Below are positions 16,507 through 44,210 of a DNA stretch of 64,000 nt, piece after piece. The notes beneath the pieces were generated by a model. That model saw only the letters and a list, made by a program, of their open reading frames with translations, was not told the origin of the DNA and made no database searches. The position numbers and the translations under genes were made by a program. The stretch is from Pseudorhodoferax aquiterrae. Lineage in GTDB: Bacteria; Pseudomonadota; Gammaproteobacteria; Burkholderiales; Burkholderiaceae_C. The stretch's first letter is position 1. Each line of letters starts with the position of its first letter. Location of the stretch: contig NZ_BMYK01000002.1 of NCBI RefSeq assembly GCF_014652235.1, positions 124,001 through 188,000 of the forward strand. Direction: 5' to 3'.

Positions 16507-16511
16507 AAGCG

Positions 16512-25679: not shown

Positions 25680-26869
25680 CCGATACCGCTGCCGCGCCCC
25701 TGCCCTACGCCAACATCCGCATCGTCGAGTTCACCCACATGGTGATGGGCCCGACCTGCGGCATGCTGCTGGGCGACCTGGGCGCCGAGGTGATCAAGGT
25801 CGAACCCATCGAGGGCGACAGCACGCGCCGGCTGCTCGGCGCGGGGGCGGGCTTCTTCCCGGCCTTCAACCGCAACAAGAAGAGCATCGCGCTGGACCTG
25901 AAGCAGCCCGAGGGCCGCGAGGCCGCGCTCAAGCTCGTGGCGACGGCCGACATCGTGAGCGAGAACTTCAAGCCCGGCACCATGGCCAAGCTCGGCCTGG
26001 ACTACGCTAGCGTGAAGAAGCTGAACCCCGGCGTGGTCTACGTCAGCCACAAGGGCTTCCTGCCCGGCCCGTACGAGAACCGCACGGCGCTGGACGAAGT
26101 GGTGCAGATGATGGGCGGCCTGGCCTACATGACCGGCCGCGCAGGCGATCCGCTGCGCGCGGGCAGCAGCGTCAACGACATCATGGGCGGCATGTTCGGC
26201 GCGATCGGCGCCATGGCCGCGCTGCGCCAGCGCGAGCAGACCGGCCTGGGCTGCGAGGTGCAGTCCGCGCTGTTCGAGAACAACGTGTTCCTGGTCATGC
26301 AGCACATGATGCAGTTCGCGGCCACTGGCCGCGCGGCCAACCCCATGCCCAGCCGCATCTCGGCCTGGGCCGTCTACGACGTGTTCACCGTGAAGGACGG
26401 CGCGCAGATCTTCCTGGCCGTCGTCAGCGACAAGCAGTGGACGGTGTTCTGCCAGGCCTTCGGCCTGCAGGAGCTCCTGGCCGACCCGCGCCTGGCCAGC
26501 AACAACGACCGCGTGCTCGCGCGCGACTGGCTGATGCCCCTGCTGCGCTCGCACCTGGCCGGGCACAGCGCGGCCGAACTGGCCGCCAGGTTCGAAGCCC
26601 ACGAACTGCCGTTCGCGCCGATCGCCAAGCCGCAGGAGCTGTTCGACGACCCGCACCTGAACGCCAGTGGCGGCTTCGGCCAGCTGCGCATGAACGACGG
26701 CCAGATGGCCAAGGTGCCGCTGCTGCCCTTCACGCTGGACGGGCAGCGGCCCGGCATCCGGCTGCAGCCGCCCGCGGCCGGCGAGCATGGCGAGGCGCTG
26801 CTGCGCGAACTGGGCTACGGCGCGGCCGAGATCGCCGCGCTGCGCGCGCGCGGCATCACCGCAGGCTGA
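25676..26869 (+). CDS. CoA transferase, family III, coupled to a two-component system
   Basis: Encodes 397 residues of a CaiB/BaiF family III CoA transferase. N-terminal family patterns are IRIVEFTHMVMGP and LGAEVIKVEP. The candidate catalytic Asp is in SSVNDIMGG. It starts at an ATGA overlap with the kinase stop, so it is translated with the regulators. It is only distantly similar to the CoA transferase at 13629-14774. Its stop overlaps the convergent SBP1 gene by 14 bases. It may activate the acid that the kinase senses, but that is inference. Confidence 0.87.
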   Translation: MTDTAAAPLPYANIRIVEFTHMVMGPTCGMLLGDLGAEVIKVEPIEGDSTRRLLGAGAGFFPAFNRNKKSIALDLKQPEGREAALKLVATADIVSENFKPGTMAKLGLDYASVKKLNPGVVYVSHKGFLPGPYENRTALDEVVQMMGGLAYMTGRAGDPLRAGSSVNDIMGGMFGAIGAMAALRQREQTGLGCEVQSALFENNVFLVMQHMMQFAATGRAANPMPSRISAWAVYDVFTVKDGAQIFLAVVSDKQWTVFCQAFGLQELLADPRLASNNDRVLARDWLMPLLRSHLAGHSAAELAARFEAHELPFAPIAKPQELFDDPHLNASGGFGQLRMNDGQMAKVPLLPFTLDGQRPGIRLQPPAAGEHGEALLRELGYGAAEIAALRARGITAG

Positions 26870-27989
26870 CGAAGGCGCCGCCCTCCACCACGACGAAGTG
26901 CAGCGGCGGCCGGCTGTCGCCGAAGCGGTCGATCGCGATGGCGCGTTGCAGGCCCTGGTAGGGGCCGTGGCGCAGCACGGCCTCTTTGAGGCTTTCGCCG
27001 CGCTCTGCACGTTCCATGGCCTGCGCCAGCACCATGACGGCATCGTAGGAGCCCAGCGCGCCGAAGCCAGGCTCGCGCTCGTAGCGCGCGCGGTAGCTGC
27101 GCTGGAACGCCTGGTAGCGCGCCGTGCGGTCCGAGGGGTCGTAGGGCAAGGCCGTCAGCAGGCCTTCGACCGCGCGCCCGCCCAGTTCGAGCAGTGCGTC
27201 GGCGGCGGCCCATTCGGCCGCGGCCAGCGGCACAGCGGAACCCTGCTTGCGCACCTGCTGGGCGAGCAGCGCCGCATCGGCACCGCGGCCGATGAACAGC
27301 AGCGCGTCGGACGGGTGCCGCAGCAGCGCGCGCGCCACGGCGCTGGACGACAGCGCGGGCCCGGAGACGTAGGCCACCTCTGCCGCCACCTGTCCACCCA
27401 GGGCCGCCAGGCTGATGCGGAAGGCGCTCAGCCAGGGACCGGAATAGGCCGCGTTGGCCTGGTCGAAGGCCACCGCCACGCGCCGCTGGCCGCGCCCGAC
27501 CAGCAGCTCGGCGTAGGCCCGCGCGGAGTCGGCCAGCGCACCGTTCAGACGGATGAAGTGGTCGTCGCGGCCGCCGAGTTCGGGCGCGTTGGCCGTCGGG
27601 CTCACGAGCAAGGTGCCGGCGGCATCGGCCTGCGGCAGCACGGCCAGCGCCTGGGTGCTCGTGAACGGACCGACCACGGCCCGCACGCGGGCCGACAGCA
27701 GCGCGGCGGCCATGGCCTGGGCGTGGTCCTTGTCGAGGGCGATGTCGCGCACGACCAGTTCCAGCGGGCGCCCGTGCACGCCGCCGGCGCGGTTGAGCTC
27801 CTCCACGGCCAGCATGGCACCGTTGCGCCCGTCCTCGCTCACGCTGAAGCCCTGGGTCGCCGCGCCGCCCAGGAAGCCGATGCGCACCGGCGTGCCGCCG
27901 TTGCAGGCCGCCAGGGCTGCAGCGGCCAGGAACACCATGCGGCACATCCAGGACCGCATGTGGCGCAGGTGTGCGGCGCGGCACGTCAT
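26856..27989 (-). CDS. SBP1: lipoprotein substrate-binding protein of the LivJ type (Peripla_BP_6-like), receptor candidate
   Basis: Encodes 377 residues. The N-terminus is a lipoprotein signal with LAAC (Cys29 from the first Met). The rest is a two-lobe binding protein of the branched-chain amino acid type (PVRIGFLGGA at the mature start, VVGPFTSTQALAV and LLVSPTAN in lobe 1). The tail ends VLRHGPYQGLQRAI then DRFGD, shared with SBP2 and SBP3. No permease or ATPase gene is nearby, and it overlaps the HK1 gene by ATGA, so a sensory role with HK1 is inferred. A second ATG ten codons later is a possible start. The ligand is unknown. Confidence 0.82.
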   Translation of the reverse strand: MTCRAAHLRHMRSWMCRMVFLAAAALAACNGGTPVRIGFLGGAATQGFSVSEDGRNGAMLAVEELNRAGGVHGRPLELVVRDIALDKDHAQAMAAALLSARVRAVVGPFTSTQALAVLPQADAAGTLLVSPTANAPELGGRDDHFIRLNGALADSARAYAELLVGRGQRRVAVAFDQANAAYSGPWLSAFRISLAALGGQVAAEVAYVSGPALSSSAVARALLRHPSDALLFIGRGADAALLAQQVRKQGSAVPLAAAEWAAADALLELGGRAVEGLLTALPYDPSDRTARYQAFQRSYRARYEREPGFGALGSYDAVMVLAQAMERAERGESLKEAVLRHGPYQGLQRAIAIDRFGDSRPPLHFVVVEGGAFVSLR

Positions 27990-30340
27990 GGCGACGTCGT
28001 CCTAGAACCGGCGACGGTGTCGGCGGGCCGGTTGTGCCCGCCCGTGCGCGGGGCATCGGTCGGCAGGCGCAGCACGAAGCTGGCGCCGGCACCGAGGACG
28101 CTGTGCACGGTCAGCGTGCCCCCCAGCACATTGACCACTGCGTTGTAGCTGATGTGCAGACCCAGCCCGGTGCCGCCACGCCCCATGCGCGTGGTCATGA
28201 AGGGCTCGAAGATGCGGTCGATGTGCTCGGGCGCGATGCCCCTGCCGTCGTCCTGCACGTGCAGCCAGACCCAGCCCTCGTCCTCGCGGCCGGCCGAGAT
28301 CCGCACCGTGCCGTGGTCGCGCCCGTCGAAGCCGTGCAGCACCGCGTTCTGGATCAGGTTGCCGATGGTCTGGCCCAGCGCGCCGGGGTAGCTGTCCAGC
28401 ACCAGACCGCTGGCCGGCACGTCCACCTCGATGCGGTAAGGCGTGCGGTGAAAGCTCGGGCGCAGGCTCACCACCATCTCGTGCACCACCTCGCCGACCT
28501 CGAAGCGCCGGCGCTGCGCGCTGGTCTGGTCCACCGCCACCTGCTTGAAGCTGTGGACCAGCTCGGCCGCGCGACGCAGGTTGCGCCCCGCGATGTCCAC
28601 GCCCTGCGCGATGCTCTCCAGCATCTGGTCCAGCGCGCTGCGCCGCACGCCCGAGCGCATCGCCTCTTGGAAACCGCGCAAGGCATCGCCCATCGCGCTG
28701 ACGGCCATCACGCCGTTGCCCAGCGGCGTGTTCAGTTCGTGCGCCACGCCGGCCACCAGGCCGCCCAGCGCCGCCATCTTCTCGGCCTGGACCAGGTCGT
28801 CCTGCGCCGCGCGCAGCTGCTCCACCGTCCGGGACAGCGCGGCGTTGGCGCCGGCCAGGGCCTCGGTGCGTTGCTGCACCCGGCTCTCGAGCTGCTGGTT
28901 CAACTCGCGCAGCTCGCGCTCGACGAGGCGCATCGGGCCCACGTCCATGGTGGCCCAGACCATCAGCCGTGCGCTGGGCAACTGGGCCCGCCGGGCATGC
29001 AGGCTGACCTGCACGGGGCTGCCGTCGCTGCGGCGCAGGCACAGGTCGCCGACCGGTTCGCCGCGCTCGATGGTGCCGCGCAGGCCCGCGCGCAGCTGCG
29101 GGTCGGCCAGCAGGCCGAGCTCCCGCGGAAGCCGCTGCAGCACGTCCTCGCGGCGGTAGCGGAACTCCTTGCACCAGGCCCGGTTGACGTCCAGCAGGCG
29201 GTCGTCGTCGTCGGTGTCGCTCACGGCCATCGGCACCGGCGAGGCGTGGAAGATCGCCTGCGACTTGCGCTCCCGCGCCTGCAGCGCACCGGTCAGGGAT
29301 TCCAGGTCGCAGGCCAGCCGGTTGAATTCCGCCACCGAGCTGCGCGGCCAGGGATCCTCGCCGTCGTTGCCGCTGCCGCTGCGGTCGGCGCGTTCGATGA
29401 TGCGGTCCAGCGGGCGCGCCATGCGCGTGGCCCAGAACGGCGCCACCAGCAGCGCGATCACCAGGCTGCCGAGCAGCACGGCGACCACGGACAGCACCAG
29501 CGTGCGCACCTGGGGATGGGCCCATCCGACCGGCATGCGGCCGACGAAGTACCAGTCGAGCGCGGCCGAATGCGAGACCGTGGCGTGGAACTGCGTGCCC
29601 CCGTGCTCGAAGCGCTCCACGGGTGGCTGCTCGCGCAGCATGCCGCGCATCAGCGGCCAGTTGCGGATGTTGAGCGTGCCGACATCCTGGCCCTGCTGGC
29701 TGTCGGCGATGATCTCGCCGGTGCGGTCGACCACCCATACCGACGCGGCGCGCGTGCCCGCCGCCACCCGCACGGCATCGACGAGCGCGCCCAGCTGCAC
29801 CTCGGCCAGCAGCACGTCGCCGTGCCGGTCGCTCAAGGCCACCCCCACGGTGGACCGGCCGTCCAGCACCGACACATGGGTGCCGCGCCAGACCAGCGTC
29901 GGCCGGCCGGCGACCGCGCGGAACAGCGGGTCGGCCGACAGGTCGCTGCCCAGCACATCCTCACGCTGGTGGCGCAGCGCGGGCGGCAGGCCCGCCGCGA
30001 CCACGCGCCCCTGCGGCGACAGGCGGTAGATGGCGCGCAGCACGCGGCCATCGCCCACGCCCTGGTCCAGCACCGCATCGGCGGTCTGCGGTGGCGCCGC
30101 ATCGATCAGCGCTTCCAGCAGCGCAAGCCGGCGCCGCTGCGCCTGCAGCACCAGTTCCATGCGGGCCCGCATCTCGGCCACCTCGCGCTGCTGCGCGGCG
30201 TGGCTGCGGGCCTCGATGCGCGGAACCTGGTAGGCCAGCAGGCCGCCCAGCACGAGCACGAAGGTCAGCAGCATGGCCACCACCAGCAGCGCGGCCAGGT
30301 GGCTGCGCAGGCGCAGGACGGGCCAGGCCGGGCGCTTCAT
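27986..30340 (-). CDS. HK1: membrane histidine kinase with dCACHE-like sensor and PAS domain
   Basis: Encodes 784 residues. A TM helix (about 14-37) and a second (about 280-303) flank a 240-residue periplasmic domain of dCACHE type (VWVVDRTGEIIADS near its distal part). A HAMP-like stretch, a PAS domain (about 355-470), a coiled coil, HisKA and HATPase follow. The phospho-acceptor is His534 in GVAHELNTPLGN, the N box Asn is about 665, and the G boxes are DDGRG (697-701) and GTGLGLH (723-729). There is no receiver or Hpt domain, so it should phosphorylate a separate regulator, most likely RR1. Both ends overlap neighbours by ATGA. Confidence 0.88.
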   Translation of the reverse strand: MKRPAWPVLRLRSHLAALLVVAMLLTFVLVLGGLLAYQVPRIEARSHAAQQREVAEMRARMELVLQAQRRRLALLEALIDAAPPQTADAVLDQGVGDGRVLRAIYRLSPQGRVVAAGLPPALRHQREDVLGSDLSADPLFRAVAGRPTLVWRGTHVSVLDGRSTVGVALSDRHGDVLLAEVQLGALVDAVRVAAGTRAASVWVVDRTGEIIADSQQGQDVGTLNIRNWPLMRGMLREQPPVERFEHGGTQFHATVSHSAALDWYFVGRMPVGWAHPQVRTLVLSVVAVLLGSLVIALLVAPFWATRMARPLDRIIERADRSGSGNDGEDPWPRSSVAEFNRLACDLESLTGALQARERKSQAIFHASPVPMAVSDTDDDDRLLDVNRAWCKEFRYRREDVLQRLPRELGLLADPQLRAGLRGTIERGEPVGDLCLRRSDGSPVQVSLHARRAQLPSARLMVWATMDVGPMRLVERELRELNQQLESRVQQRTEALAGANAALSRTVEQLRAAQDDLVQAEKMAALGGLVAGVAHELNTPLGNGVMAVSAMGDALRGFQEAMRSGVRRSALDQMLESIAQGVDIAGRNLRRAAELVHSFKQVAVDQTSAQRRRFEVGEVVHEMVVSLRPSFHRTPYRIEVDVPASGLVLDSYPGALGQTIGNLIQNAVLHGFDGRDHGTVRISAGREDEGWVWLHVQDDGRGIAPEHIDRIFEPFMTTRMGRGGTGLGLHISYNAVVNVLGGTLTVHSVLGAGASFVLRLPTDAPRTGGHNRPADTVAGSRTTSP

Positions 30341-31449
30341 GGCAGCGGCTCGAAGCGGCCGCCTTGCACGACCCGGAAATACGCCTGGCGCGCGGCATCA
30401 CCGAAGCGGTCGAAGGCGATGCTCTGCTGCAGGCCTTGGTAGGGGCCCTGGCGCAGCACGGCGTTGCGGGCCGATTCGCCCGGCCGCGCCTGCGCCAGCG
30501 CGCGCGCCACCACGGTCATCGCGTCGTAGGCGGCGATGCTGCGGTAGTTGGGTTCGGTGCCGAAGCGCGCCACATAGGCTTGGTGGAAGCCGCGGTAGGC
30601 GGCGCCCTCGTCGTCCAGCCGCGCGGCGGATGCCAGCACCAGGCCCTCCACGGCGCTGCCGCCCGCCTCCAGCAGCGAGCGGTCCTCGGCCCAGTCCGGG
30701 GCCACCATCGGCAGCTTCGCATGCAGCTTGGCCGCCTGCTGGGCCAGCCGCGCCGCGTCCACGCCATTGGCCACGAACACCAGGCCGTCGGGGCCGGCGG
30801 CCAGCAGCGTGCGCACCGCGGCGTAGGCCGTCGGATCCGCGGCCACGCCGAACTCGGTGTCCGCCACGATGTGCCCGCCCAGGGCCGTGAAGGCCTGCAC
30901 GAAGGCATCGCGCCAGCCGCCGTTGTTGCTGGCATTGCGCATGTCGGTGGCCAGCGCCAGCCGGCGGTGGCCGCGCGCATGCAGCATGCCGGCGTAGTCG
31001 CTGGCGCTCGCGCGCGTGCTGCGGTTCAGCAGCAGCAGCTGGTCGTCGCGTTCCCTGAGCGCCGCGTCGGTGGAGGTGGGGCACAGCAACAGCACGCCGG
31101 CCGCGTCGAACAGCGGCAGCATGCGGGCCGCGACGGGGCTGGAGAACGGGCCGATGACCAGCGCCACGCCGGCATCGCGCAGCGCGCGCACCGCCGCGGC
31201 CTCGGTCGCGGGCGTGGCGCCGCTGTCGCGCACCAGCAGTTCGACCGGCCGCCCGCCGATGCCGCCGCCGGCGTTGAGCCTCTCGGCCGCCAGCAGCGCG
31301 CCGTTGCGCCCGTCCACGTTGAAACGGGCATTGCGGCCGCTGAAATCGGCCAGCAGGCCGATGCGCACCGGCGCCGCGGGCATGCACCCGGCCAGCAGCG
31401 CCAGCGCCAGGCAGGTGGCGACCCGGCACGCGTTCAGGGCAGCAGCCAT
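30337..31449 (-). CDS. SBP2: lipoprotein substrate-binding protein of the LivJ type
   Basis: Encodes 370 residues. The chosen ATG gives a short basic segment, a hydrophobic stretch (TCLALALLAGC) and a lipobox Cys near residue 22. The two-lobe binding fold begins at PVRIGLLADFSG. It is clearly homologous to SBP1 and SBP3 (tail VLRQGPYQGLQQSIAFDRFGD-like), but its ligand-facing segments differ strongly. It overlaps the end of the HK2 gene by 16 bases and the start of HK1 by ATGA. An upstream in-frame ATG would destroy the signal peptide layout. The ligand is unknown. Confidence 0.82.
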   Translation of the reverse strand: MAAALNACRVATCLALALLAGCMPAAPVRIGLLADFSGRNARFNVDGRNGALLAAERLNAGGGIGGRPVELLVRDSGATPATEAAAVRALRDAGVALVIGPFSSPVAARMLPLFDAAGVLLLCPTSTDAALRERDDQLLLLNRSTRASASDYAGMLHARGHRRLALATDMRNASNNGGWRDAFVQAFTALGGHIVADTEFGVAADPTAYAAVRTLLAAGPDGLVFVANGVDAARLAQQAAKLHAKLPMVAPDWAEDRSLLEAGGSAVEGLVLASAARLDDEGAAYRGFHQAYVARFGTEPNYRSIAAYDAMTVVARALAQARPGESARNAVLRQGPYQGLQQSIAFDRFGDAARQAYFRVVQGGRFEPLP

Positions 31450-33785
31450 CCGGAGTCCTTGGGCGCGTCCGGCGCGACGACCGGCAGGCGCATCGCGAAG
31501 CACGCCCCCTGGCCCATCACGCTGTCCACCGTGAGCGTCCCGCCCAGCAGCTTGGTCACCGCGTTGGAGGCGATGTGCAGCCCCAGGCCGCCGCCGCCAT
31601 GTCCCGTCCGGGTCGTGACGAAGGGCTCGAAGAGGCGGTCGAGCTGCCCGGCCGCGATGCCGCGCCCGTCGTCGACCACATGCAGCCAGATGCGCCCGTC
31701 GCCGCCGGGCCGGTCCTCGCGCCCTGCCGTGATGCGCACCGTGCCGCGCGTGCGGCCTTCGAAGCCGTGCACGACCGCGTTCTCGATCAGGTGGCCCAGC
31801 GCCTGGCCCAGCGCGCCGGGATAGCTGTCCATGCGCAAGCCGCTGGCCGGCACGTCCACCTCGATGCGCCAGGGCTGGCTGGCGAAGCTGGGCTTGAGGC
31901 TCACCACCATCTCGTGCACCACCTCGCTGAGCTCGAAGCTGCGCCGCTGTGCGCTGGTCTGGTCCACCGCCACCTGTTTGAAGCTGTGCACCAGCTCGGC
32001 CGCGCGCCGCAGGTTGCGCCCTGCGATGGCCACGCCCTGGCCCAGGCTCTCGACCAGCTGGACCAGGTCGCGCCGCCGCAGGCCCTCCTGCGCGGCCGCC
32101 TGGAAGCTGCGCGTGGCGTCGCCCATCGCGCTGACGGCCATCACGCCGTTGCCCAGCGGGGTATGGAGCTCGTGCGCGACGCCGGCGACCAGCTTGCCCA
32201 GCGCCGCCATCTTCTCGGCGCGCACCAGTTCACGCTGGGCCGCGCGCAGGCGGGCGGCGGTCTGCGACAGCTCGGCATTGGAGCGGCCCAGCGCCTCGGT
32301 GCGCTGCTGCACGGAGGCCTCCAGCTGCCGGTTCAGGCCGCGCAGCTGCTGCTGCATGCGGCGCATGGGGCCGATGTCGATGCTGGCCCAGATCAGCCAG
32401 CGCTCGCCGCCCACGCTGGCGCGCCGGCCATAGATCTGGCACAGCATCGTCTCGCCGTTGGCGCGCCGCAGCCGGCCTTCGCCGACCAGGCCGTCGTCCT
32501 GCAGGCGGGCGACCAGCTCGGCGCTTTCGGCTGCGGTGAACAGGCCGAGTTCCACGCCGGTGCGGCCGATGACATCCTCCCGGCGGTGCTGCAAGGCCTG
32601 GCACCAGGCTTCGTTGGCATCGAGCAGGCGCATGCCGTGGTCGGCATCGGTCACCGCCATCGGCACCGGCGCGGCGTTGAAGATGGCCAGGAAGGTCAGC
32701 TCGCGCTCGCGCAGCGCGACGGCCATGGCCGCCAGGTGGCGCGAGAGCCGGTCGTACTCCGCGACCCGACAGTCCGGACCGGCCGGCCTGTCCGGGCCGG
32801 CCGGGCTGGCGCCGCGCATGGTCTGCGTGGCCCGCGCGACGATGGTCTGCAGCGGCCGCGCCAGATAGCCGGCCCAGAACGGTGCCATCAGCAGTCCGAT
32901 GCCCAGGCTGGCGAAGAAGGCCACGCCGACGCCCAGCACCAGATTGCTCACGTCCGCGTTGGCCAGACCGACCGGCGCATGGCCGATGAAGTACCAGCCC
33001 AGGGCCGGCGAGTGCGCGGTCGCCACCCGGAACGCCCCGGCCGGGAAGGGGAAGATCCGGCTGCCGTCGCTGCCCTCGCGCACCGCCTGCATCAGCGGCC
33101 AGTTGCGGATGTTGACCTTGCCCGCGTCGCGGCCGCCGACGGTGTCGGCGATGATCTCGCCGTCGGGGTCGACCACCCAGACCGAGGACGGGCTTGCGCC
33201 GGCCGCCGTGTCCATGGTGTCCAGCAGCGTGCCGATCGGAACCTCGGCGAGCAGCGTTTCGCCGGCCGGCGAACGGTAGGCCAGCCCGGCGGTCAGGCGG
33301 CCGGTCAGCACCGAGAGGTAGCGGCCGCTCCAGACCACGCCCGGCCCGGGGCCGAGCGCGCGCAGCAGGCTGCTGCCGGACAGGTCGCTGCCCAGCAGGT
33401 CGCCGCGCCGCGCGCGCAGGGACTCGGGCAGGCCGACGGCGGTCACGCGGCCCTGCGGCGAGACGCGGAAGACCGCGCTCAGCATGGCGCCGTCGTCCAC
33501 GCCCTCGTCCAGCACCCTGTCGGCATGTGCCGCAGCCGGGCCTTGCAGCAGCGCGGCCAGCAGCTCCAGCCGGTCCTGCCGCGTGCCCAGCAGCAGCTCC
33601 ATGCGCGCACCGAGTTCCTGCACCTCGTGGAGCAGGGACTGCTGGCTCTCGCGCTCCAGGCCCGGGATCCGGTAGGCCAGTACGGCGCCGCCGGCCAGCA
33701 CCAGCGTCAGCAGCATGCTCGTCAGCAACAGGGCCGACAGGTGGCTGCGCAGCGTCCAGACGCCCCAACGGCCGCGGGCCAGCAT
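31434..33785 (-). CDS. HK2: membrane histidine kinase paralog
   Basis: Encodes 783 residues with the same layout as HK1: TM near 16-38, dCACHE-like periplasmic domain, TM near 281-303, HAMP-like region, PAS, HisKA and HATPase. The phospho-acceptor is His538. The residue three positions after it is His rather than the Asn found in HK1, HK3 and HK4 (HELHTPLGN against HELNTPLGN). The N box reads HLIENAV, keeping the key Asn, and the G boxes are DDGRGI and GGGGLGLHI. The ATG at MLARGRWG starts the aligned N-terminus; the frame extends further upstream without support. It begins seven bases after the RR1 stop. Confidence 0.87.
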   Translation of the reverse strand: MLARGRWGVWTLRSHLSALLLTSMLLTLVLAGGAVLAYRIPGLERESQQSLLHEVQELGARMELLLGTRQDRLELLAALLQGPAAAHADRVLDEGVDDGAMLSAVFRVSPQGRVTAVGLPESLRARRGDLLGSDLSGSSLLRALGPGPGVVWSGRYLSVLTGRLTAGLAYRSPAGETLLAEVPIGTLLDTMDTAAGASPSSVWVVDPDGEIIADTVGGRDAGKVNIRNWPLMQAVREGSDGSRIFPFPAGAFRVATAHSPALGWYFIGHAPVGLANADVSNLVLGVGVAFFASLGIGLLMAPFWAGYLARPLQTIVARATQTMRGASPAGPDRPAGPDCRVAEYDRLSRHLAAMAVALRERELTFLAIFNAAPVPMAVTDADHGMRLLDANEAWCQALQHRREDVIGRTGVELGLFTAAESAELVARLQDDGLVGEGRLRRANGETMLCQIYGRRASVGGERWLIWASIDIGPMRRMQQQLRGLNRQLEASVQQRTEALGRSNAELSQTAARLRAAQRELVRAEKMAALGKLVAGVAHELHTPLGNGVMAVSAMGDATRSFQAAAQEGLRRRDLVQLVESLGQGVAIAGRNLRRAAELVHSFKQVAVDQTSAQRRSFELSEVVHEMVVSLKPSFASQPWRIEVDVPASGLRMDSYPGALGQALGHLIENAVVHGFEGRTRGTVRITAGREDRPGGDGRIWLHVVDDGRGIAAGQLDRLFEPFVTTRTGHGGGGLGLHIASNAVTKLLGGTLTVDSVMGQGACFAMRLPVVAPDAPKDSGWLLP

Positions 33786-33792
33786 CAGGGGC

Positions 33793-36009: not shown

Positions 36010-36189
36010 GGGGATGCCCATTGCGCACAAACGCGGCCATGGGATGGACGAGTTGACAACGATGCCATTGCACCATCAGGGAAATTCGCTGACAACAAGA
36101 CAGGCACCGACACATGCAATGTGTACATCACGAGCGACAGCACCCGGGAAGAGCGGCGTACAAGACACGGTCCAGCCCTTTCCTTGACG
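36010..36189. promoter_or_regulatory. Leader of the RR1 operon, with motifs shared with the RR2 leader
   Basis: These 180 bases separate the HK3 stop from the RR1 start on the minus strand. Read on the plus strand, ATTGCGCAC (36020-36028) and ATTGCACCA (36067-36075) also occur before RR2, at similar distances from its start (11 and 58 bases here, 8 and 59 there). A short inverted repeat, ACACAT-GCA-ATGTGT, lies at 36110-36124. The region is less GC-rich than its surroundings and probably carries the RR1 promoter, although no certain -35/-10 pair was found. Confidence 0.45.
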
Positions 36190-38535
36190 CTATGGCGCCC
36201 GCGGCGGCAGCCGCATCTCGAAGCAGGCCCCTTCGCCAGGCGCACTGCACAGCTTCAGGCTGCCGCCCAGCAGGTTCTCGACGGCAGCCTGGCTGATGTG
36301 CAGTCCCAGTCCGATGCCGCCCTTGCCCAAGCGGGCCGTCATGAACGGCTCGAACAGGCGGTCCTGTTGGGCGGCCGCGATGCCGCAGCCGTCGTCGGCC
36401 ACACGCAGCCAGATGCGGCCGTCCTCGCCCGGCCCATCGCTGCGCCCGCCCGTGATGCGCACCGTGCCGTGCGCGCGTCCTTCGAAGCCGTGCTGCACGG
36501 CGTTCTGGACCAGGTTGCCCAGCGCCTGGCCCAGCGCGCCGGGGTAGCTGTCCAGCAGCAGCCCGCACGCAGGGACCTGCACGTCGATGCGGTAGGGCGT
36601 GCGCGCAAAGCTCGGTGTGAGGCTGGCCACCATTTCGCGCACCACGTCGCCCAGCTCGAAGCTGCGCCGCTGCGCGCTGGTCTGGTCCACCGCCACCTGC
36701 TTGAAGCTGTGCACCAGGTGGGCGGCCCGGCGCAGATTGCGCCCGGCGATGTCGGTGGCCTGCTCCACCTGCTCGAGCGTGCGCAGCAGCACGCTGCGCC
36801 GCAGCCCGCCGGCCTGCGCCGCGCGCAGGGACCGGCCGGCCTCGGCCATGGCGCTCACCGCCATCACGCCATTGCCCAGCGGCGTGTTCAGCTCGTGGGC
36901 GACCCCGGCCACCAGGCCGCCGAGCGCCGCCATCTTCTCGGCGCGCACCAGTTCGTCCTGCGCCGTGCGCAGCTGCTCCACGGTGGCGGACAGCTCGGCG
37001 TTGGCGGCGGCCAGCGCCTCGGTGCGCTGCGCCACGCGCTCGCCCAGTTGCTGGTTCATCTCGCGCAGTTGCTGTTCGATGCGCCGCTGCGGTCCGATGT
37101 CCATGATGGCCCAGATCACGAGATCCTGCGACGCCAGCGCGACGCGCTGCGCGGACACCTGGGCCTGCATGGGTTCGCCATCGCCGCGCAGCAGCACGGT
37201 CTCGGCGCTGGCGCGCTGCCCCTGCATGCGGCCCAGCAGGGCGCTGCGCTGCGCCTCGGTCCACAGGCCGATCTCGGTGGCGGTGCGGCCCAGCACCTGG
37301 TCGCGGCTGCTGCGCAGTTCACGGCACCAGGCCTCGTTGACGTCCAGCAGCCGGTACGCGTTGGCCGCGTCGGTCACGCTCATCGGCACCGGCGAGGCGT
37401 TGAAGATCGCCAGGAACTTGCGTTCGCGCTCCTGCAGCGCCTCGGCCATGCTCTGCAGGTCGCCCGCCAGGCGGTTGAACTCCGCCACATGGCCGCGCGG
37501 CCAGTCGCCGCTGACCGGCTCGCCGCGGGTGGTCCGTTCGGCGCGGCGCACGATGCGCTGCAGCGGCCGCGTCAGCCGCTGCGCCCAGAACGGCGCCATC
37601 AGCAGTCCGACCAACAGGCAGCCGGCGAGCGAGCTCACCATGTAGGACACCAGCTGCCGCACGCGCGGATTGGCCCAGCCGGTCGGTGCCTGGCCCACGA
37701 AGTCCCAGCCGAGCACCGCGGAATGCGCGACGGCGGCATGGTAGGTCCGGCCCTCGTGGCGGAAGATCGGCTCGGCCGCGCGGCCCTGCAGCCGGGCCTG
37801 CATCAGCGGCCAGGCCCGGATGTTCAGAGGCCCTTGTTCGCGGCCGCCGCCGGTGTCGACGATCACGTCGCCGTTGCGGTCGACCACCCACAGGGTCGCG
37901 GCGCGGCGGCCTGCCGCCACCCGCACCGCCTGCAGCAGCACGGCGGGGGACACCTCGGCGACCAGCACCTGGCCAGCGGCATCGCGCACCGCGAGCGCGG
38001 CGACGCGCCCACCGCCCCGCAACGACATGTGGCGGCCGCTCCAGACCACGGCCGGGCCACGGCGCACCGCCTGGAACAGCGCATTGGCGGACAGGTCGCT
38101 GCCGATCAGTTCGTGCCGCCGCCGCAACCATTCGCCTCCCAGCCCGGCCGCCAGCACGCGGCCGTCCGCCGAGAGGCGGTAGACGGCATCCAGGGGCAGG
38201 CCGGCGCGCAGGCCTTCGTCGAGCAGGCGCTCGGCCTGCCCGGCTGGCGCGTCCCTGGCCAGCGTGTCCAGCAGCTCGAGCCGGTTCTGCGCCGTGCCGA
38301 GCAAGAGCTCCAGCCGGCCCGCGAGCTGCTCCACATGCGCCTGCAGTTCCGCCTGCGTGGCGCGCTCGATGGCCGGCAGCCGCGCGAGCAGGATCGCGGC
38401 CCCCGCCACGGCGAAGGTCACCAGCATCGTGACCACCAGCAGCGCGGACAGATGGCTGCGCATGCGCCACACGCGTGGCCGGGGCCGGCCCGCCACCCGG
38501 CCGCGCCGGCCCATCCCCTGCGGCGCGGTCCTCAT
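36190..38535 (-). CDS. HK3: membrane histidine kinase paralog without its own SBP gene
   Basis: Encodes 781 residues laid out like HK1: a longer basic N-terminal leader, TM near 28-51, dCACHE-like sensor, TM near 293-317, PAS, HisKA and HATPase. The phospho-acceptor is His547 in VAHELNTPLGN. The G1 box is DDGCGI with a Cys, and GIGLGLHIS replaces the GTGLGLH of HK1. It overlaps the end of HK4 by ATGA and is last in its operon. Unlike HK1, HK2 and HK4 it has no binding-protein gene directly beside it, so it may share SBP3 or sense a ligand itself. Confidence 0.87.
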   Translation of the reverse strand: MRTAPQGMGRRGRVAGRPRPRVWRMRSHLSALLVVTMLVTFAVAGAAILLARLPAIERATQAELQAHVEQLAGRLELLLGTAQNRLELLDTLARDAPAGQAERLLDEGLRAGLPLDAVYRLSADGRVLAAGLGGEWLRRRHELIGSDLSANALFQAVRRGPAVVWSGRHMSLRGGGRVAALAVRDAAGQVLVAEVSPAVLLQAVRVAAGRRAATLWVVDRNGDVIVDTGGGREQGPLNIRAWPLMQARLQGRAAEPIFRHEGRTYHAAVAHSAVLGWDFVGQAPTGWANPRVRQLVSYMVSSLAGCLLVGLLMAPFWAQRLTRPLQRIVRRAERTTRGEPVSGDWPRGHVAEFNRLAGDLQSMAEALQERERKFLAIFNASPVPMSVTDAANAYRLLDVNEAWCRELRSSRDQVLGRTATEIGLWTEAQRSALLGRMQGQRASAETVLLRGDGEPMQAQVSAQRVALASQDLVIWAIMDIGPQRRIEQQLREMNQQLGERVAQRTEALAAANAELSATVEQLRTAQDELVRAEKMAALGGLVAGVAHELNTPLGNGVMAVSAMAEAGRSLRAAQAGGLRRSVLLRTLEQVEQATDIAGRNLRRAAHLVHSFKQVAVDQTSAQRRSFELGDVVREMVASLTPSFARTPYRIDVQVPACGLLLDSYPGALGQALGNLVQNAVQHGFEGRAHGTVRITGGRSDGPGEDGRIWLRVADDGCGIAAAQQDRLFEPFMTARLGKGGIGLGLHISQAAVENLLGGSLKLCSAPGEGACFEMRLPPRAP

Positions 38536-40862
38536 GCGGCCGCCTCGTCGGCCGTTCGCGCCGGCGGTGCGGCGGTGCGCGGCGCGGTCTGCGGCAGCCG
38601 CAGCTCGAAGCAGGCGCCCTGGCCCGGCACGCTGCTCACCGTCAGCGTCCCGCCCAGCAGGTTCACGACCGCGTTGTAGCTGATGTGCAGGCCCAGTCCG
38701 GTGCCGCCCTGGCCCATCTTGGTGGTCATGAACGGATCGAAGATGCGGCCGATGTGCTCGGGCGCGATGCCGCGGCCGTCGTCGCTCACGCGCAGCCAGA
38801 TCCGGCCCTCTTCCGCGCGGCCGGCCGTGATGCGCACGGTGCCGCGCGCGCGGCCGTCGAACCCGTGCAGCACCGCGTTCTGCAAGAGGTTGCCCAGCAC
38901 CTGGCCCAGCGGCCCCGGATAGCTGTCCAGCCGCAGGCCTTGCGCCGGCACCGCGGTCTCGATGCGGTAGGGTGTGCGCGCGAAGGTCGGCCGCAGGCTC
39001 ACCACCATCTCGTGCACCACCTCGGCCAGTTCGAAGCTGCGGCGCCGGGCGCTGGCCTGGTCCACCGCCACCTGCTTGAAGTTGCGCACCAGGTCGGCGG
39101 CCCGTCCGAGGTTGCGCGCGGCGATGTCGCAGCCCTGCTCGATGCTGTCGAGCCAGTGCTGCAGGTCGGCCCGCCGCAGCCCGGACTGCAGGGCCGCCCG
39201 CAGGCGGCGCGTCGCGTCGTCCATGGCGCTGATGGCCATGACACCATTGCCCAGCGGCGTGTTGAGCTCATGCGCCACACCGGCCACCAGACCGCCCAGC
39301 GCCGCCATCTTCTCCGAGCGCACCAGCTCGGCCTGCGCGGCGCGCAGGCGCACCAGCGTGGCCGACAGCTCCTCGTTGGACGCCGCGAGCGCCTCGGCGC
39401 GCTGCGCCACGCGCGCCTCCAGGTCGTGGTTGGCGCTGCGCAGCTCCTGTTCCACGCGGCGCAGCGGGCCGATGTTGATGCTGCCCCAGACCACCAGGCG
39501 CTGTTCGCGGAAGGTCAGCATCCGGCCGAAGGACTTGAACAGCTTGACCTCGCCGCTCTTGCAGACGATCTCGATCTCGCCACTGAGCGCGCCATCCTGC
39601 GTGCCGGCCAGCAGCGCGTCGCGTCGCATCGGCGATTCCCACAGGCCGAGTTCGAGCGAGTTCAGGCCCACGGCCTCCGCGCGCGTGTAGCCGACCTCCT
39701 CGGTCCAGACGTCGTTCACGTCCAGCAGCGTGTGTCCCTCGTCCGCGTCGACCACGGCCATCGGCACGGGTGCCACGTTGAACAAGGCCTGCAGCTTGTG
39801 CTCGCGTTCCTGCAGGGCGGCGGCCATGGCCTGCAGGTTCGCCGCCAGGCTGTTGAACTCGGCCACGGGACCGCGCGGCCAGTCGCGGCCGAGCGCCTGG
39901 CCGGTCGTGGTCAGGGCGGCGCGCTGCACGATCTCCTGCAGTGCGCGCACCAGCCGGTGGGCCCAGAACGGGGCGGCCAGCAGGCCCACCGCCAGGGCGG
40001 CGGCGAAGCTGAGCAGCGCATAGCGCAGGGCGCGTTGCACGCCGGCGGAGTGCAGCCCGCGCGGGATGGTGCCCACCACATACCAGTCCAGCGTCGGCGC
40101 CGGCGCAAGCGCCGCCTGCAGGCTGCGCCCTTCGAACTCGACGGCCGAGGGCAGCTCCTGCCCGCGCAGGGCGGCCTGCAGCAGCGGCCAGTTCTGCAGG
40201 TTCAGCCGGCCCATCTGGCGACCCTCGGTGTCGGCCACCACTTCGCCGCTGCGGTCGACCACCCACAGGGCGGACGCGCCGGCGCCGGCCAGCGCCTGCA
40301 GGTCGTGCAGCAGCGTGGCGATCGGCACCTCGCCGATCAACACGCGGCCCGCGGCATCGCGGTGCGCCACCCCGACGACCAGCGTGCCGGACAGCGCCGA
40401 CAGCAGGCGCCCGCTCCAGGCGGTTGGTCGCTCGGCGTCGACGGCCTGGAACAGCGCGCTGGCGGACAGGTCGCTGCCCACCAGCTCGGCGCCGTGCGCC
40501 GGCATGTCCGCCGACAGTCCGACCGCTTCGACGCGCCCCGTCGGCGAGACCAGGTACACGGCGCGGAACATGCGGCCGCTGCCGACATCGGCATCGAGCA
40601 GCGCCGTCGCCGCCTCGGCCGGCTTGCCGCGCAGCAGCGTGGCGATCAGCTCCAGCCGCGACTGGCGCGCACCGAGCAGCAGCTCCAGCCGCTCGGAGAC
40701 GTCGGCCACCTCCTGCCGCAGGTCCTGCAGCGCCCCGGCCTCGATGTCGGGCACGCGCCAGACCAGCGCGACGACGCTGACCAGCGCGAAGGTCAGCACC
40801 ATGGTCACCAGCAGCAGCGCCGACAGGTGGTGGCGCAACTGCCAGACCCGCGCGGTCCTCAT
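38532..40862 (-). CDS. HK4: membrane histidine kinase paralog
   Basis: Encodes 776 residues: TM near 14-35, dCACHE-like sensor (LWVVDRSGEVVADTEG), TM near 278-300, PAS (about 350-470), HisKA and HATPase. The phospho-acceptor is His531 in VAHELNTPLGN; LLQNAVLHGF is the N box and DDGRGIAPEH and GTGLGLHIS the G boxes. Its dimerisation region reads LVRNFKQVAVDQASARRR where the other three have LVHSFKQVAVDQTSAQRR, so it is the more diverged copy there. AAGGGG lies eight bases before the ATG. It starts 13 bases after the SBP3 stop and overlaps HK3 by ATGA. Confidence 0.88.
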   Translation of the reverse strand: MRTARVWQLRHHLSALLLVTMVLTFALVSVVALVWRVPDIEAGALQDLRQEVADVSERLELLLGARQSRLELIATLLRGKPAEAATALLDADVGSGRMFRAVYLVSPTGRVEAVGLSADMPAHGAELVGSDLSASALFQAVDAERPTAWSGRLLSALSGTLVVGVAHRDAAGRVLIGEVPIATLLHDLQALAGAGASALWVVDRSGEVVADTEGRQMGRLNLQNWPLLQAALRGQELPSAVEFEGRSLQAALAPAPTLDWYVVGTIPRGLHSAGVQRALRYALLSFAAALAVGLLAAPFWAHRLVRALQEIVQRAALTTTGQALGRDWPRGPVAEFNSLAANLQAMAAALQEREHKLQALFNVAPVPMAVVDADEGHTLLDVNDVWTEEVGYTRAEAVGLNSLELGLWESPMRRDALLAGTQDGALSGEIEIVCKSGEVKLFKSFGRMLTFREQRLVVWGSINIGPLRRVEQELRSANHDLEARVAQRAEALAASNEELSATLVRLRAAQAELVRSEKMAALGGLVAGVAHELNTPLGNGVMAISAMDDATRRLRAALQSGLRRADLQHWLDSIEQGCDIAARNLGRAADLVRNFKQVAVDQASARRRSFELAEVVHEMVVSLRPTFARTPYRIETAVPAQGLRLDSYPGPLGQVLGNLLQNAVLHGFDGRARGTVRITAGRAEEGRIWLRVSDDGRGIAPEHIGRIFDPFMTTKMGQGGTGLGLHISYNAVVNLLGGTLTVSSVPGQGACFELRLPQTAPRTAAPPARTADEAAA

Positions 40863-40875
40863 GGCGCGGCCCCTT

Positions 40876-41985
40876 TCATCGCAGCGGCTGGTAGCGGCCG
40901 TCCTGCACCACGACGAAGCTCGGCGCCCGCGTGGTGTCGCCGAAGCCGTCGAAGCCGATCGGCTGCTGCAGGCCGTCGTAAGGGCCGTGCCGCAGCACCG
41001 CCTGCTTGAGCGATTCGCCGGCGCGGCTGCGCGCAGCGGCCTGCACCAGGACCGTGACGGCATCGTGCGCGATGGCCGCGTGGTAGCCCGGCCCCCGGCC
41101 GAAGCGTGCCTGGTAGGCGGCGACGAAGGCCAGGTAGCGCGCGCTGGTGCTGCTGCGGTCGTGCATCTGGCCGACCAGCACGCCTTCGACCGCGCGGCCG
41201 CCCAGCGCGATCAGGGCCTCGCCGCCGGCGGCGTCGGCCACGGCCATCGGCAGCCCTGGCGCCTGCCTTTGCGCCTGCTGCGCGAGCCGCACGGCATCGA
41301 CGCTGCCGCAGGCGAAGACCAGGCCGTCCGGCCGCTGCTGCAGCATCTCGCGCACGACGTCGCCGTAGGCCGTGGCAGCGTCGGAGGCGAAGTCCACCGT
41401 CGCCGCCACGGCGCCGCCGAGCGCCTGGAAGGCGGCGCAGAACTCGTCGCGCCAGGCCACCGCGTAGACCGCGTTGCGCGGGTCGGTGGCGGTGGCCACG
41501 GCCATGCGCCGGTGGCCGCGCTGCCACAGCAGCTGGGCATAGGCACGGGTGGTGTCGCGCGTGCAGGGGCTCAGCATCAGCAGCATGTCGTCCTTGCCGG
41601 CCAGCACCGAGGCGGTGGCGTTCGGGCTGACCAGCAGCAGGCCCGCCTGCGTGGCCTGCGGCAACACGGCGATGGCGATGGCGCTGGCGAACGGGCCGAC
41701 CACGGCCTGCACCTGCGCTGCCACCAGGTTCTCCATGGCCTTGCGCGCGGTGGCAGGGTCGTCGCCGTTGTCCTGCACCACGAGTTCGAGCGGGCGCCCG
41801 CCGGTGTCGCCCGCCGCGTTGACCTGCTCGACCGCCAGGATGGCGCCGTTGCGCCCGTCCACGCTGGTCGCCGCGCCGCGGCCGGACAGGCCGGCCAGGA
41901 AGCCGATCCTGGACAGTCCCCGCGCCTGGCAGCCTGCCAGGCCGGCAAGACCCGCCAGGCCGGCGACCAGGGCACGCCGCCTCAC
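40876..41985 (-). CDS. SBP3: lipoprotein substrate-binding protein of the LivJ type
   Basis: Encodes 369 residues starting at GTG, which overlaps the RR2 stop (GTGA). A lipoprotein signal ending LAGC (Cys near residue 17) is followed by the two-lobe binding fold (RIGFLAGLSG at the mature start; VVGPFASAIAIAV and LLLVSPNATA in lobe 1). The tail ESLKQAVLRHGPYDGLQQ with GFDGFGD matches SBP1 and SBP2. It sits directly between RR2 and HK4, and no ABC transporter component is encoded nearby. A sensor role with HK4 is inferred. The ligand is unknown. Confidence 0.82.
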   Translation of the reverse strand: MRRRALVAGLAGLAGLAGCQARGLSRIGFLAGLSGRGAATSVDGRNGAILAVEQVNAAGDTGGRPLELVVQDNGDDPATARKAMENLVAAQVQAVVGPFASAIAIAVLPQATQAGLLLVSPNATASVLAGKDDMLLMLSPCTRDTTRAYAQLLWQRGHRRMAVATATDPRNAVYAVAWRDEFCAAFQALGGAVAATVDFASDAATAYGDVVREMLQQRPDGLVFACGSVDAVRLAQQAQRQAPGLPMAVADAAGGEALIALGGRAVEGVLVGQMHDRSSTSARYLAFVAAYQARFGRGPGYHAAIAHDAVTVLVQAAARSRAGESLKQAVLRHGPYDGLQQPIGFDGFGDTTRAPSFVVVQDGRYQPLR

Positions 41986-44210
41986 GCAAGCGTCTCCCGC
42001 TGCGCCAGCCAGTCCGCAAAGCCGTCCAGCGGCATGGGCTTGCCGTACAGATAGCCCTGCACCTCGTCGCAGCCGAGCTGGCGCAGCGCCTGCGCCTGCG
42101 CAGGGGTCTCCACGCCTTCGGCCAGCACCTGCATGCCGAGCCGGTGGCCCAGCGGGACGATCATCTCGGCGATGCGCGCGGTGGTGTCGCCCGAGTCCAG
42201 CGCCGAGACGAAGGCACGGTCGATCTTGAGCCGGTCGGCCGGCAGACGGTCCAGGTAGGACAGCGAGGAGAAGCCGGTGCCGAAGTCGTCGATCGCCACG
42301 GCGATGCCGCGCGCCTTGATCTGGTGCAGCAGCGCGGAGACGCGCTCCATGCCCATCACGGCCACCGATTCCGTGATCTCCAGTTCCAGGCAGCTGGGCG
42401 GCAGCCCGGCATCGTGCAGGGCCTGGTCCACCTGGGCCAGGAACTGCGGCTGCGCGAACTGCAGCGGCGACACGTTGACCGCCATGCGCAGGCCGTCCTG
42501 CTGCGCGCGCAGCCGCGCCAGGGCCTGCAGCGCGGTGCGCAGCACCCAGTGGCCGATCGGCACGATCAGGCCGGATTGCTCGGCCACCGGAATGAACTCG
42601 GCGGGCGAGACGAAGCGCCCGTCGTCCGTGCGCCAGCGCAGCAGCGCCTCGGCGCCGATGACCCGGTCCTGGGCCAGCGCGAGCTGGGGCTGGTAGACGA
42701 GGAACAGGCTCTCGCGGTCGAAGGCCTGCTGCAGCCCGTGCAGCAAACGGGTGCGCTCGCGCGTGACGATCCCGACCTCGGCCGTGTAGTAGTGCGCGCG
42801 CCCCAGGCCGCTCGCCTTGGCCTGCTTCAGCGCGATCAGCGCGTTCTTGAACAGCTCCTGACCGGCGCCGGCCGCGTTCTCGCTGCGCGCCAGCCCGATG
42901 GAGAACGACATCGGTCGCGCGACGCCTTCGACCAGGTAGGGCGCTTCCAGCAAGGCCGCGAGCCGCGCCGGGACCAGCTCGGATGCCGGTCCCCAGACGC
43001 CGAAGGTGTCGCCGGCCACGCGCGCAAGCAGGCAGTGCGGCGGCAGGCCGCCGGCCAGGCGCCGGGCGATGGCCTGCAACAGCAGATCGCCGTAGGCGTA
43101 GCCGAACATGTCGTTGGTCTCGGCGAAGCGGTCGATGTCCAGCAGGGCCAGGACCTGGCCCTCGTCGCGGCCCGCGGCCGCCTCCTGGTCGATGTGCTGC
43201 AGCAGGGCCATGCGGTTGGGCAGGTCCAGCAGGCGGTCGCGGAAGGCGTGCGCACGCAAACGCGCCAGCAGATCGATGTTGGCCGCGCTCAGCGAGATGT
43301 TGGAGCAGAACACGTTGAGCAGCCGCACGTCGACGTCGCGCAAGGGCTTCCCCGCGCGCACGAAGGCGGCGAAGTCGTTGCCATCCTGGCCGGCGAAGAA
43401 CAGCGTCAGGTGCTGGGGCTCCAGCAGGTTGCGGCGCTGGGACAGCGCGCGCGTCAGGCAGTCGGCGACCACGGCGTCGCCGATGTCGGCGATGTCCCGG
43501 TCCATCAGGCCGGCGAAGGCGCCGGCCGCGGCGATCACGGTGCACTGCCTGGCGGCGCCGCGCTCGGTCGTGCGGCGCGAGGCGCAGACCAGCCCCTCGG
43601 GCAGCACGCCGATCAGGCTGGCGATCTGGGTGATCACGCCTTCGGCGAAGGTGCGCAAACCCTGCTCGGCCAGGAACTGGTTGCTGGCCTCGACGATCTT
43701 CTCCAGCCCGCGCCGGCTGGCGTCCAGGCGCTGCAGCTGGTCGTACGAACGGATCGCGGTCGTCAAGGCCGTGTACAGCTTGACCCGCGTGAGCTCGCTC
43801 TTGGTCTTGTAGTCGTTGATGTCGTAGCGCCGGATCGTCTCGATCTCCGGCGCATGGCCCGGCTGGCCGGTGCGCAGCACGATGCGCACATGGGCCAGGC
43901 CCAGCTCGCCGCGGATGCGGTCCACCGTGACCAGGCCGGCCTCCTCGCTTTCCATCACCACGTCCAGCAGGATCACCGCGACGTCGCGTTCGCGGCCGAG
44001 GATCTGCACCGCCTCGGTGCCCGAATAGGCGTGCAGCAGCTGCAGCGGCCGCCCCTCGATCTCCATGCCGCGCAGGCCGAAGGCCGTGCTCTCGTGGACA
44101 TCGGCATCGTCGTCGACCACCAGGATGCGCCAGGGCGCTGATTCTTGTGGCTCCGTCGGCTCCGGCCCCTCGCCGTCGTCGACGAATTCCAGTATGTCGT
44201 GGTCGTTCAT
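41982..44210 (-). CDS. RR2: response regulator REC-DUF3369-GGDEF-like-EAL, c-di-GMP phosphodiesterase candidate
   Basis: Encodes 742 residues, collinear with RR1 throughout. The receiver phospho-acceptor is Asp83 (LLDVVME), followed by DYKTKSELT, a DUF3369 domain, a GGDEF-like domain with AGDTF in place of GGDEF, and an intact EAL domain ([29 protein letters not shown]). The start was placed at MNDHDILEFV by comparison with RR1; an ATG three codons upstream is an alternative. It leads the RR2-SBP3-HK4-HK3 unit and should lower c-di-GMP when phosphorylated or relieved, the direction being unknown. It is divergent from the DegP/DegQ-type protease gene. Confidence 0.88.
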   Translation of the reverse strand: MNDHDILEFVDDGEGPEPTEPQESAPWRILVVDDDADVHESTAFGLRGMEIEGRPLQLLHAYSGTEAVQILGRERDVAVILLDVVMESEEAGLVTVDRIRGELGLAHVRIVLRTGQPGHAPEIETIRRYDINDYKTKSELTRVKLYTALTTAIRSYDQLQRLDASRRGLEKIVEASNQFLAEQGLRTFAEGVITQIASLIGVLPEGLVCASRRTTERGAARQCTVIAAAGAFAGLMDRDIADIGDAVVADCLTRALSQRRNLLEPQHLTLFFAGQDGNDFAAFVRAGKPLRDVDVRLLNVFCSNISLSAANIDLLARLRAHAFRDRLLDLPNRMALLQHIDQEAAAGRDEGQVLALLDIDRFAETNDMFGYAYGDLLLQAIARRLAGGLPPHCLLARVAGDTFGVWGPASELVPARLAALLEAPYLVEGVARPMSFSIGLARSENAAGAGQELFKNALIALKQAKASGLGRAHYYTAEVGIVTRERTRLLHGLQQAFDRESLFLVYQPQLALAQDRVIGAEALLRWRTDDGRFVSPAEFIPVAEQSGLIVPIGHWVLRTALQALARLRAQQDGLRMAVNVSPLQFAQPQFLAQVDQALHDAGLPPSCLELEITESVAVMGMERVSALLHQIKARGIAVAIDDFGTGFSSLSYLDRLPADRLKIDRAFVSALDSGDTTARIAEMIVPLGHRLGMQVLAEGVETPAQAQALRQLGCDEVQGYLYGKPMPLDGFADWLAQRETLA

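Follow-up and report, generated by a model that had tools for sequence, protein, structure and literature searches.

Why should three substrate-binding proteins (SBPs) be encoded among histidine kinases (HKs) and response regulators (RRs), with no transporter beside them? The question is raised by a locus of Pseudorhodoferax aquiterrae in a stretch of 64 kb that was analysed as a whole (the window; the genome that holds it is called the own genome). Nine consecutive genes between positions 26856 and 44219, every one on the minus strand, encode three protein types and are transcribed in the order RR2, SBP3, HK4, HK3, RR1, HK2, SBP2, HK1, SBP1. This content and order (given as RR1-HK2-SBP2-HK1-SBP1 and RR2-SBP3-HK4-HK3) had been put forward from the DNA letters alone, in what we call the original prediction, and are borne out by gene models and Pfam searches. 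We consider it probable that the locus is a tandemly amplified RR-SBP-HK unit, in which SBPs acting as co-receptors would address the kinases, the kinases would address regulators with EAL domains, and these would set the level of cyclic di-GMP (c-di-GMP). Genomes and loci are cited by our own labels (G069, L033 and the like).

Lipobox-bearing binding proteins with no Liv-type transporter nearby

SBP1 to SBP3 match Peripla_BP_6 at 155-175 bits. Partners for them were sought with hidden Markov models grown from one Liv-type permease and one Liv-type ATPase, a search confined to that class of transporter, and neither model found a match anywhere in the 64-kb window, as had been predicted for the array. 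As a control, the 49 other Peripla_BP_6 matches of the own genome were examined; within 7 kb of these, 35 have both a permease and an ATPase, three an ATPase only and 11 neither, in a set that includes one fragment, several SBPs that share one transporter and several near contig ends. The kinase-transmitter profile matched within 5 kb of none of the 49.

The original prediction had staked itself on homologous clusters not regularly carrying permease and ATPase genes. We compared 24 relative loci (22 RR-SBP-HK and two SBP-HK, several of the stretches ending at contig ends), and in none did a permease lie within 7 kb of the SBP, so that they do not have the makeup of an ABC importer. An ATPase was found within that distance in four, and in one of them, the Zoogloea locus L038, permeases lie 7.8 and 9.0 kb away. 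Liv-type permeases and ATPases were likewise absent from the stretches of the SBP-bearing genomes G069, G175, G1051, G876, G962, G830 and G1033.

The sensor-type SBPs also differ from the controls in how they appear to be anchored. A strict lipobox no more than 12 residues from the domain is present in 40 of 43; in two of the exceptions (G073, G117) the cysteine is present with an odd neighbour, and one of the four SBPs of G1051 has none. By nearly the same rule, which differs slightly in the allowed letters and in the domain profile that sets the start, 2/49 control SBPs qualified, both looking like ordinary signal peptides. One further control, C18:91340, has a longer linker and is apparently a genuine lipoprotein. 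Because the SBPs of Gram-negative bacteria are described in PMC11113362 as diffusing in the periplasm, tethering of this kind is unusual and fits a receptor role.

Binding proteins beside dCache sensors

The three-gene unit recurs in relatives. An RR followed directly by a Peripla_BP_6 gene and then a kinase was found at nine of the best 80 RR loci, namely in Pseudorhodoferax sp. Leaf265, Thauera propionica, a Zoogloea metagenome-assembled genome (MAG), four genomes labelled Dechloromonas and two MAGs labelled Pseudomonas or Pseudomonadaceae; the other 71 include some with a kinase alone and many with neither. Within the family, at least 17 of 299 genomes have the unit contiguously, a lower bound that comes from the best three candidates per genome, with loci inspected where coordinates implied adjacency; among the 17 are G012, without a detected DUF3369, and G175, counted although its regulator frame is broken. 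In the stretches fetched from G111 and G229, SBP-HK stands without an RR. Apart from HK3 and G1052, the SBP gene adjoins a kinase gene. In G876 two sensor-type SBP genes stand in tandem between RR and HK (L237:9547-13986). L042 has a second kinase, but this is a PAS kinase with a LuxR-type regulator after it and does not belong to the family.

Sensor and SBP also tend to occur together. In a draw of 399 genomes from the order (best five candidates per genome, the sensor and SBP draws taken as one set), the sensor profile matched in five genomes at E<=1e-25 and the SBP profile in six at E<=1e-70; five genomes were common to both (Fisher 7e-11, shared ancestry ignored), and the sensor and SBP genes lie side by side in all five. 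When 369 genomes were drawn from the whole class, the own genome alone matched the sensor profile. In G1033 (L240:403-4705) 25 nt separate a lipobox SBP from the gene downstream, which encodes a dCache-HAMP-PAS-PAS-GGDEF-EAL protein with an intact GGDEF motif and a sensor that matches the sensor profile at E 4.4e-49. Sensor and SBP therefore stay paired where a c-di-GMP enzyme replaces kinase and regulator.

When the HK1 sensor was modelled with AlphaFold2 (17 sequences; mean pLDDT 84.7), the model matched dCache domains in the PDB, among them those of KinD, Mlp24, PctC and DctB. Long helices (6-81 and 276-322) stand on either side of this fold, and the model thus predicts a periplasmic domain between two transmembrane (TM) helices. 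Fifth among the matches comes a Desulfohalobium retbaense protein, 5ERE (TM-score 0.48 by query, E 2.2e-8); the fold search gave no indication of which part of it was matched. The SBP profile covers residues 18-318 of the 5ERE chain (E 9.7e-17), and a table in PMC8694187 places its dCache domain at 322-562. The SBP and dCache types that are neighbours in the array are thus fused elsewhere in one chain.

A serious rival, although one that we consider rather unlikely, is that the dCache domains sense small molecules directly; the SBPs would then be scavengers or trans partners of a distant transporter, and adjacency would reflect shared regulation. The dCache fold itself speaks for direct sensing, as many of its members bind ligands themselves, and several further findings weigh with it against a co-receptor. 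In G1052, of the same genus, one RR stands with four full-length kinase matches, and none of 101 SBP candidates matched at E<=1e-60. No such SBP was found among 60 candidates in G268, where an RR and a full-length HK are adjacent, or among 65 candidates in Curvibacter sp. HBC61, which has full-length kinases at two RR loci (L033, L035); the same kind of search recovered the known SBPs of the positive controls G039 and G243. None was found in G194, G120, G241, G036 and G160 either; these five count for less, as the match to their kinases lies mostly in the transmitter or the kinases contain other insertions. The sister species G069 has lost most of SBP2, of which a short remnant lies between HK1 and HK2 (L115:8809-8997), and has kept both kinases. 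Kinases outnumber SBPs in the own genome, G069, G175, G1051 and G1052, and equal them only in G253; in the array itself no SBP gene immediately precedes HK3, and no kinase gene follows SBP1. Conversely, one genome of the order draw, G934, has a sensor-type SBP and no match to the sensor profile A1, the neighbours of this SBP being a CHASE-PAS-GGDEF-EAL protein and a Cache hybrid kinase on the opposite strand. LuxQ is not among the best 50 fold matches listed for the HK1 sensor. The partial distance correlation between SBP and dCache is 0.315 (0.0005, 2000 permutations; 21 operons, including three from genus arrays, PAS rows left out for missing values), and is both weak and not specific, because SBP-GGDEF is nearly as high at 0.279 (0.0045); SBP-DHpCA gave 0.282 (0.0095). 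Finally, PMC11113362 reports adjacent SBP and kinase genes whose products do not interact, and according to its introduction 10 of the 11 characterised SBP-kinase couples are encoded by neighbouring genes.

Direct sensing alone accounts less readily for the lipoboxes, the permease-free surroundings of the SBPs in relatives, the SBP in every sensor genome of the order draw, the SBP beside another type of output in G1033, and the two domain types in 5ERE. The genomes with kinases and no SBP, the surplus of kinases and the SBP2 remnant nevertheless mean that the SBP cannot be the obligatory input of every kinase. As an SBP was found without the sensor once and the sensor without an SBP several times, and as such SBPs nearly always adjoin a dCache receptor, the SBP is probably an accessory co-receptor rather than an obligatory receptor.

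Kinases, regulators and the amplified array

All four kinases match HATPase_c and PAS in Pfam, with HisKA (HK3, HK4) and dCache_1 (HK1, HK3, HK4) below the cut-off. An H-box GVAHEL with the phospho-histidine, together with HATPase_c, marks them as histidine kinases, and no match to REC or Hpt was found in them at E<=0.001, which sets them apart from hybrid kinases of the LuxQ/TorS type. With HK1 as query, HK2 to HK4 were the only full-length matches in the own genome; the next best of its 59 matches there covers the transmitter alone, at 37% identity. Between the four, identity is 71-80% in the DHp domain and 41-48% in the dCache domain, and from the phospho-histidine to position +16 they differ only at +3 (HK2) and +13 (HK4). 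Transmitters are in general more conserved than sensors; alike DHp domains with diverged sensors are the pattern expected if separate inputs share one output. Within HK1 the ratio of nonsynonymous to synonymous substitution (dN/dS) against G069 is 0.32 for dCache and 0.11 for DHp-CA, the dCache domain being the freer of the two.

The same residues bear on whether the pathways are insulated, with each kinase having a private regulator elsewhere and the EAL regulators serving one kinase only. We regard this as very improbable. Two RRs do face four kinases, and duplicated kinases are generally known to become insulated often, but the near identity of the phosphorylation region and the DHp domains stands against it, as does the recurrence in relatives of RR-HK or RR-SBP-HK with one kinase and one RR.

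Both regulators match EAL, DUF3369, GGDEF (75-77 bits) and, near the cut-off, Response_reg (27-31 bits). The REC, DUF3369 and EAL domains named in the original prediction are present; what it missed is that a GGDEF domain with a degenerate motif (AGDTF in RR2, TGDTF in RR1) separates DUF3369 from EAL. The intact GG[D/E]EF motif of a diguanylate cyclase is absent from RR1 and RR2. In 24 aligned regulators the EAL residues E524, N582, E614, D644, D645, K665, E701 and Q721 are invariant, which we take to be the complete catalytic set of a phosphodiesterase, and the receiver residues D86, T117 and K138 are present in RR2, with equivalents in RR1. From the degenerate GGDEF, the full EAL set and the receiver residues, the predicted output is therefore a phosphorylation-controlled c-di-GMP phosphodiesterase. 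The DUF3369 domain of RR2 (43245-44138, minus strand) is predicted to be GAF-like; the best fold matches of the REC-DUF3369 model (pLDDT 86.2) are the dual-sensor kinase structures 6OAQ, 6OAP and 6OB8, presumably REC-GAF structures.

The array is close-packed (Table 1). Most neighbours had been said to overlap or lie within 13 nt, and this holds for seven of eight junctions: five overlaps of 4-16 nt and gaps of 7 and 13 nt, the exception being HK3-RR1, where the gap is 168 or 180 nt according to which RR1 start is used. Identity among paralogues is 53-57% for the HKs, 44-49% for the SBPs and 65% for the RRs. Because its SBPs and RRs are mutually similar and the genes compared are under purifying selection, the nine-gene array is not a chance assembly.

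Table 1. Genes of the array in transcription order, with positions in the window.
Gene	Position	Strand	Features
RR2	41982-44219	minus	REC-DUF3369-GGDEF (degenerate, AGDTF)-EAL response regulator, 745 aa
SBP3	40876-41985	minus	Peripla_BP_6; lipobox LAGC; GTG start; 4-nt GTGA overlap with RR2 stop
HK4	38532-40862	minus	TM-dCache-TM-PAS-DHp-HATPase histidine kinase; 13-nt gap after SBP3
HK3	36190-38535	minus	Paralogous histidine kinase; 4-nt overlap with HK4; no SBP immediately upstream
RR1	33793-36009 or 33793-36021	minus	REC-DUF3369-GGDEF (TGDTF)-EAL; diverged genus-level RR2 paralogue; start ATG 36009 or 36021
HK2	31434-33785	minus	Paralogous histidine kinase; 7-nt gap after RR1
SBP2	30337-31449	minus	Peripla_BP_6; lipobox LAGC; 16-nt overlap with HK2
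HK1	27986-30340	minus	Paralogous histidine kinase; sensor modelled as dCache, pLDDT 84.7; 4-nt overlap with SBP2
SBP1	26856-27989	minus	Peripla_BP_6; lipobox LAAC; final array gene; no kinase downstream; 4-nt overlap with HK1

All six Pseudorhodoferax genomes examined have such kinases, four to eight of them, with 0-4 SBPs and one or two regulators. In transcription order the arrays read RR-SBP-HK-HK-RR-HK-SBP-HK-SBP in the own genome, RR-SBP-HK-HK-RR-HK-HK-SBP in G069, RR-SBP-HK-HK-SBP-HK-SBP-HK-SBP in G253, RR-HK-SBP-HK-RR-SBP-HK-HK-HK-HK in G175, RR-SBP-HK-HK-HK-SBP-HK-SBP-HK-SBP-HK-HK-HK in G1051 and RR-HK-HK-HK-HK in G1052. The array of G1051 is the largest (C1:60652-86253, L233/L234; one RR, four SBPs and eight kinases in ~26 kb). 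In the kinase tree the 18 kinases of four genus genomes form one clade apart from those of G039 and G243 (100/100), and the HK1, HK2, HK3 and HK4 lineages are each common to different species, with ultrafast bootstrap (UFBoot) of 99 or more; judged from this tree, the amplification of the kinases therefore probably preceded the species in it. In the RR tree, RR1 sits on a long branch as a genus-level duplicate. Both regulators of G175 (L119:7521-9483 and 15551-17828) lose the EAL frame near residue ~611, a shared break that we suspect to be an assembly effect or collapse.

These arrays could also be redundant or decaying tandem duplicates, amplified and lost within one genus and without function beyond an ancestral RR-SBP-HK operon. 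The varying copy number of HKs and SBPs, the long branch of RR1 and, in G069, the SBP2 remnant together with an HK3 that reads in two frames all point that way, and the broken HK3 counts against our own reading as well. We think decay quite unlikely all the same. Between the own genome and G069, dN/dS is 0.15-0.34 in eight of the nine genes (HK3 compared by its N-terminal part only, SBP2 left out as a remnant), as expected under purifying selection; the four kinase lineages are common to species; and at least four kinases are kept in each of the six genomes of the genus.

Some calls at the locus were rejected. The open reading frame 40859-42019 is in another frame than SBP3, whose true frame is that of 40876-42099, and an ARAGORN tRNA call at 36325-36408 falls within HK3 and has no defined anticodon. 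A scan of 35900-44450 gave no promoter-like site and one terminator-like site, no more than in shuffled sequence. The array is flanked by a convergent CoA-transferase gene (25676-26869) and a divergent gene for a trypsin-PDZ protease (44402-45904). The plus strand past the 3' end of the array (23560-26869) holds a REC-Trans_reg_C regulator and a 2CSK_N histidine kinase, which are a two-component system separate from the array, together with the CoA-transferase. Elsewhere in the own genome, a third DUF3369-GGDEF-EAL protein (L112:8972-11257, minus strand; C15:104990-107107) has a receiver without a phosphorylatable aspartate and adjoins a GGDEF protein, a SiaC-family protein and a SpoIIE-domain protein, presumably a Sia-like signalling neighbourhood.

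Proposed mechanism and known systems

In the mechanism that we propose, a lipid-anchored Peripla_BP_6 protein would bind a small molecule in the periplasm and, as an accessory co-receptor, modulate a histidine kinase encoded next to it by way of that kinase's dCache sensor. The kinases would phosphorylate the receiver of RR2, and that of RR1 as well, and phosphorylation would change the activity of the EAL phosphodiesterase and with it the level of c-di-GMP. Several kinases may converge on one or two outputs in this way, copies with different sensors and SBPs widening the range of inputs. We infer the contact between SBP and kinase, the phosphotransfer, the direction of the effect and the hydrolysis of c-di-GMP. 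The original prediction of a multi-input module, in which SBPs report through kinases to two phosphodiesterases, holds at this inferred level given the lipoboxes, the lack of a near transporter, the conserved unit, the intact EAL residues, the alike DHp domains with diverged sensors, the co-occurrence, 5ERE and G1033; it went too far if every kinase was meant to have an SBP as its obligatory input. A bolder version, to which we give little credence, is a many-to-one cluster in which kinases with interchangeable DHp domains form mixed dimers or clusters, a changing set of lipid-anchored SBPs is swappable and even dispensable, and new inputs to a single c-di-GMP phosphodiesterase arise by tandem duplication while the output stays fixed.

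The nearest known systems share parts of this arrangement. LuxP-LuxQ of Vibrio and TorT-TorS are alike in that a periplasmic SBP works with a membrane kinase, LuxQ and TorS being hybrid kinases with REC (and Hpt) relay outputs. The kinases of the array, in contrast, have no REC or Hpt match, its SBPs are Peripla_BP_6 proteins with a lipobox, its output is an EAL regulator, and its units are amplified. A further likeness to LuxP-LuxQ is the periplasmic domain of LuxQ, listed for two Vibrio species as a Cache domain without ligand (table in PMC8694187). NspS-MbaA of Vibrio cholerae, with homologues in Sinorhizobium, resembles the array through its SBP-controlled c-di-GMP output. It has no kinase or regulator step, and its SBP is of another family than Peripla_BP_6. 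The array differs in placing a kinase and a regulator between SBP and output, and is not a direct SBP-GGDEF-EAL pair; G1033 is similar to NspS-MbaA in gene architecture only. In 5ERE (Dret_0059) the Peripla_BP_6-like part and the dCache domain share a chain, whereas the array is not a fusion and belongs to another phylum. DUF3369 HD-GYP regulators such as VCA0210 share the REC-DUF3369 linkage and DUF3369 in a predicted c-di-GMP phosphodiesterase, but have HD-GYP in place of GGDEF-EAL as output, and the passages available on them mention no link to an SBP.

The original prediction knew of no described system of this composition, which fits the literature searched, although SBP-activated receptors are known, some of them with c-di-GMP output (introduction of PMC11113362). 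A passage of PMC8846402 states that, within the periplasmic binding protein clan, SBP_bac_3 alone had been studied in c-di-GMP networks. We found no description of the RR-SBP-HK unit in the open-access literature, subscription journals being mostly outside this search so that novelty is not proven, nor in the available passages of PMC8846402, PMC9756655, PMC4212101, PMC6234866, PMC8694187 and PMC2907700; on histidine kinases of Pseudorhodoferax the open-access literature yielded nothing. The parts are thus of known kinds in an arrangement that we did not find described, and what they appear to make up is SBP-assisted two-component sensing with c-di-GMP output, amplified in one genus.

Many bacteria have SBPs without transporters and kinases whose signals are not known, and this family offers a compact natural system in which to study both. 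Its natural variation, from one to eight kinases, 0-4 SBPs and one or two outputs, bears on whether SBPs are dedicated co-receptors, on convergence versus insulation of kinases, and on the coupling of external chemicals to c-di-GMP. What the SBP contributes could be tested directly by comparing relatives that have it with relatives that lack it. If the proposed role is true, a lipobox together with the lack of a transporter would be a practical genome marker for signalling SBPs.

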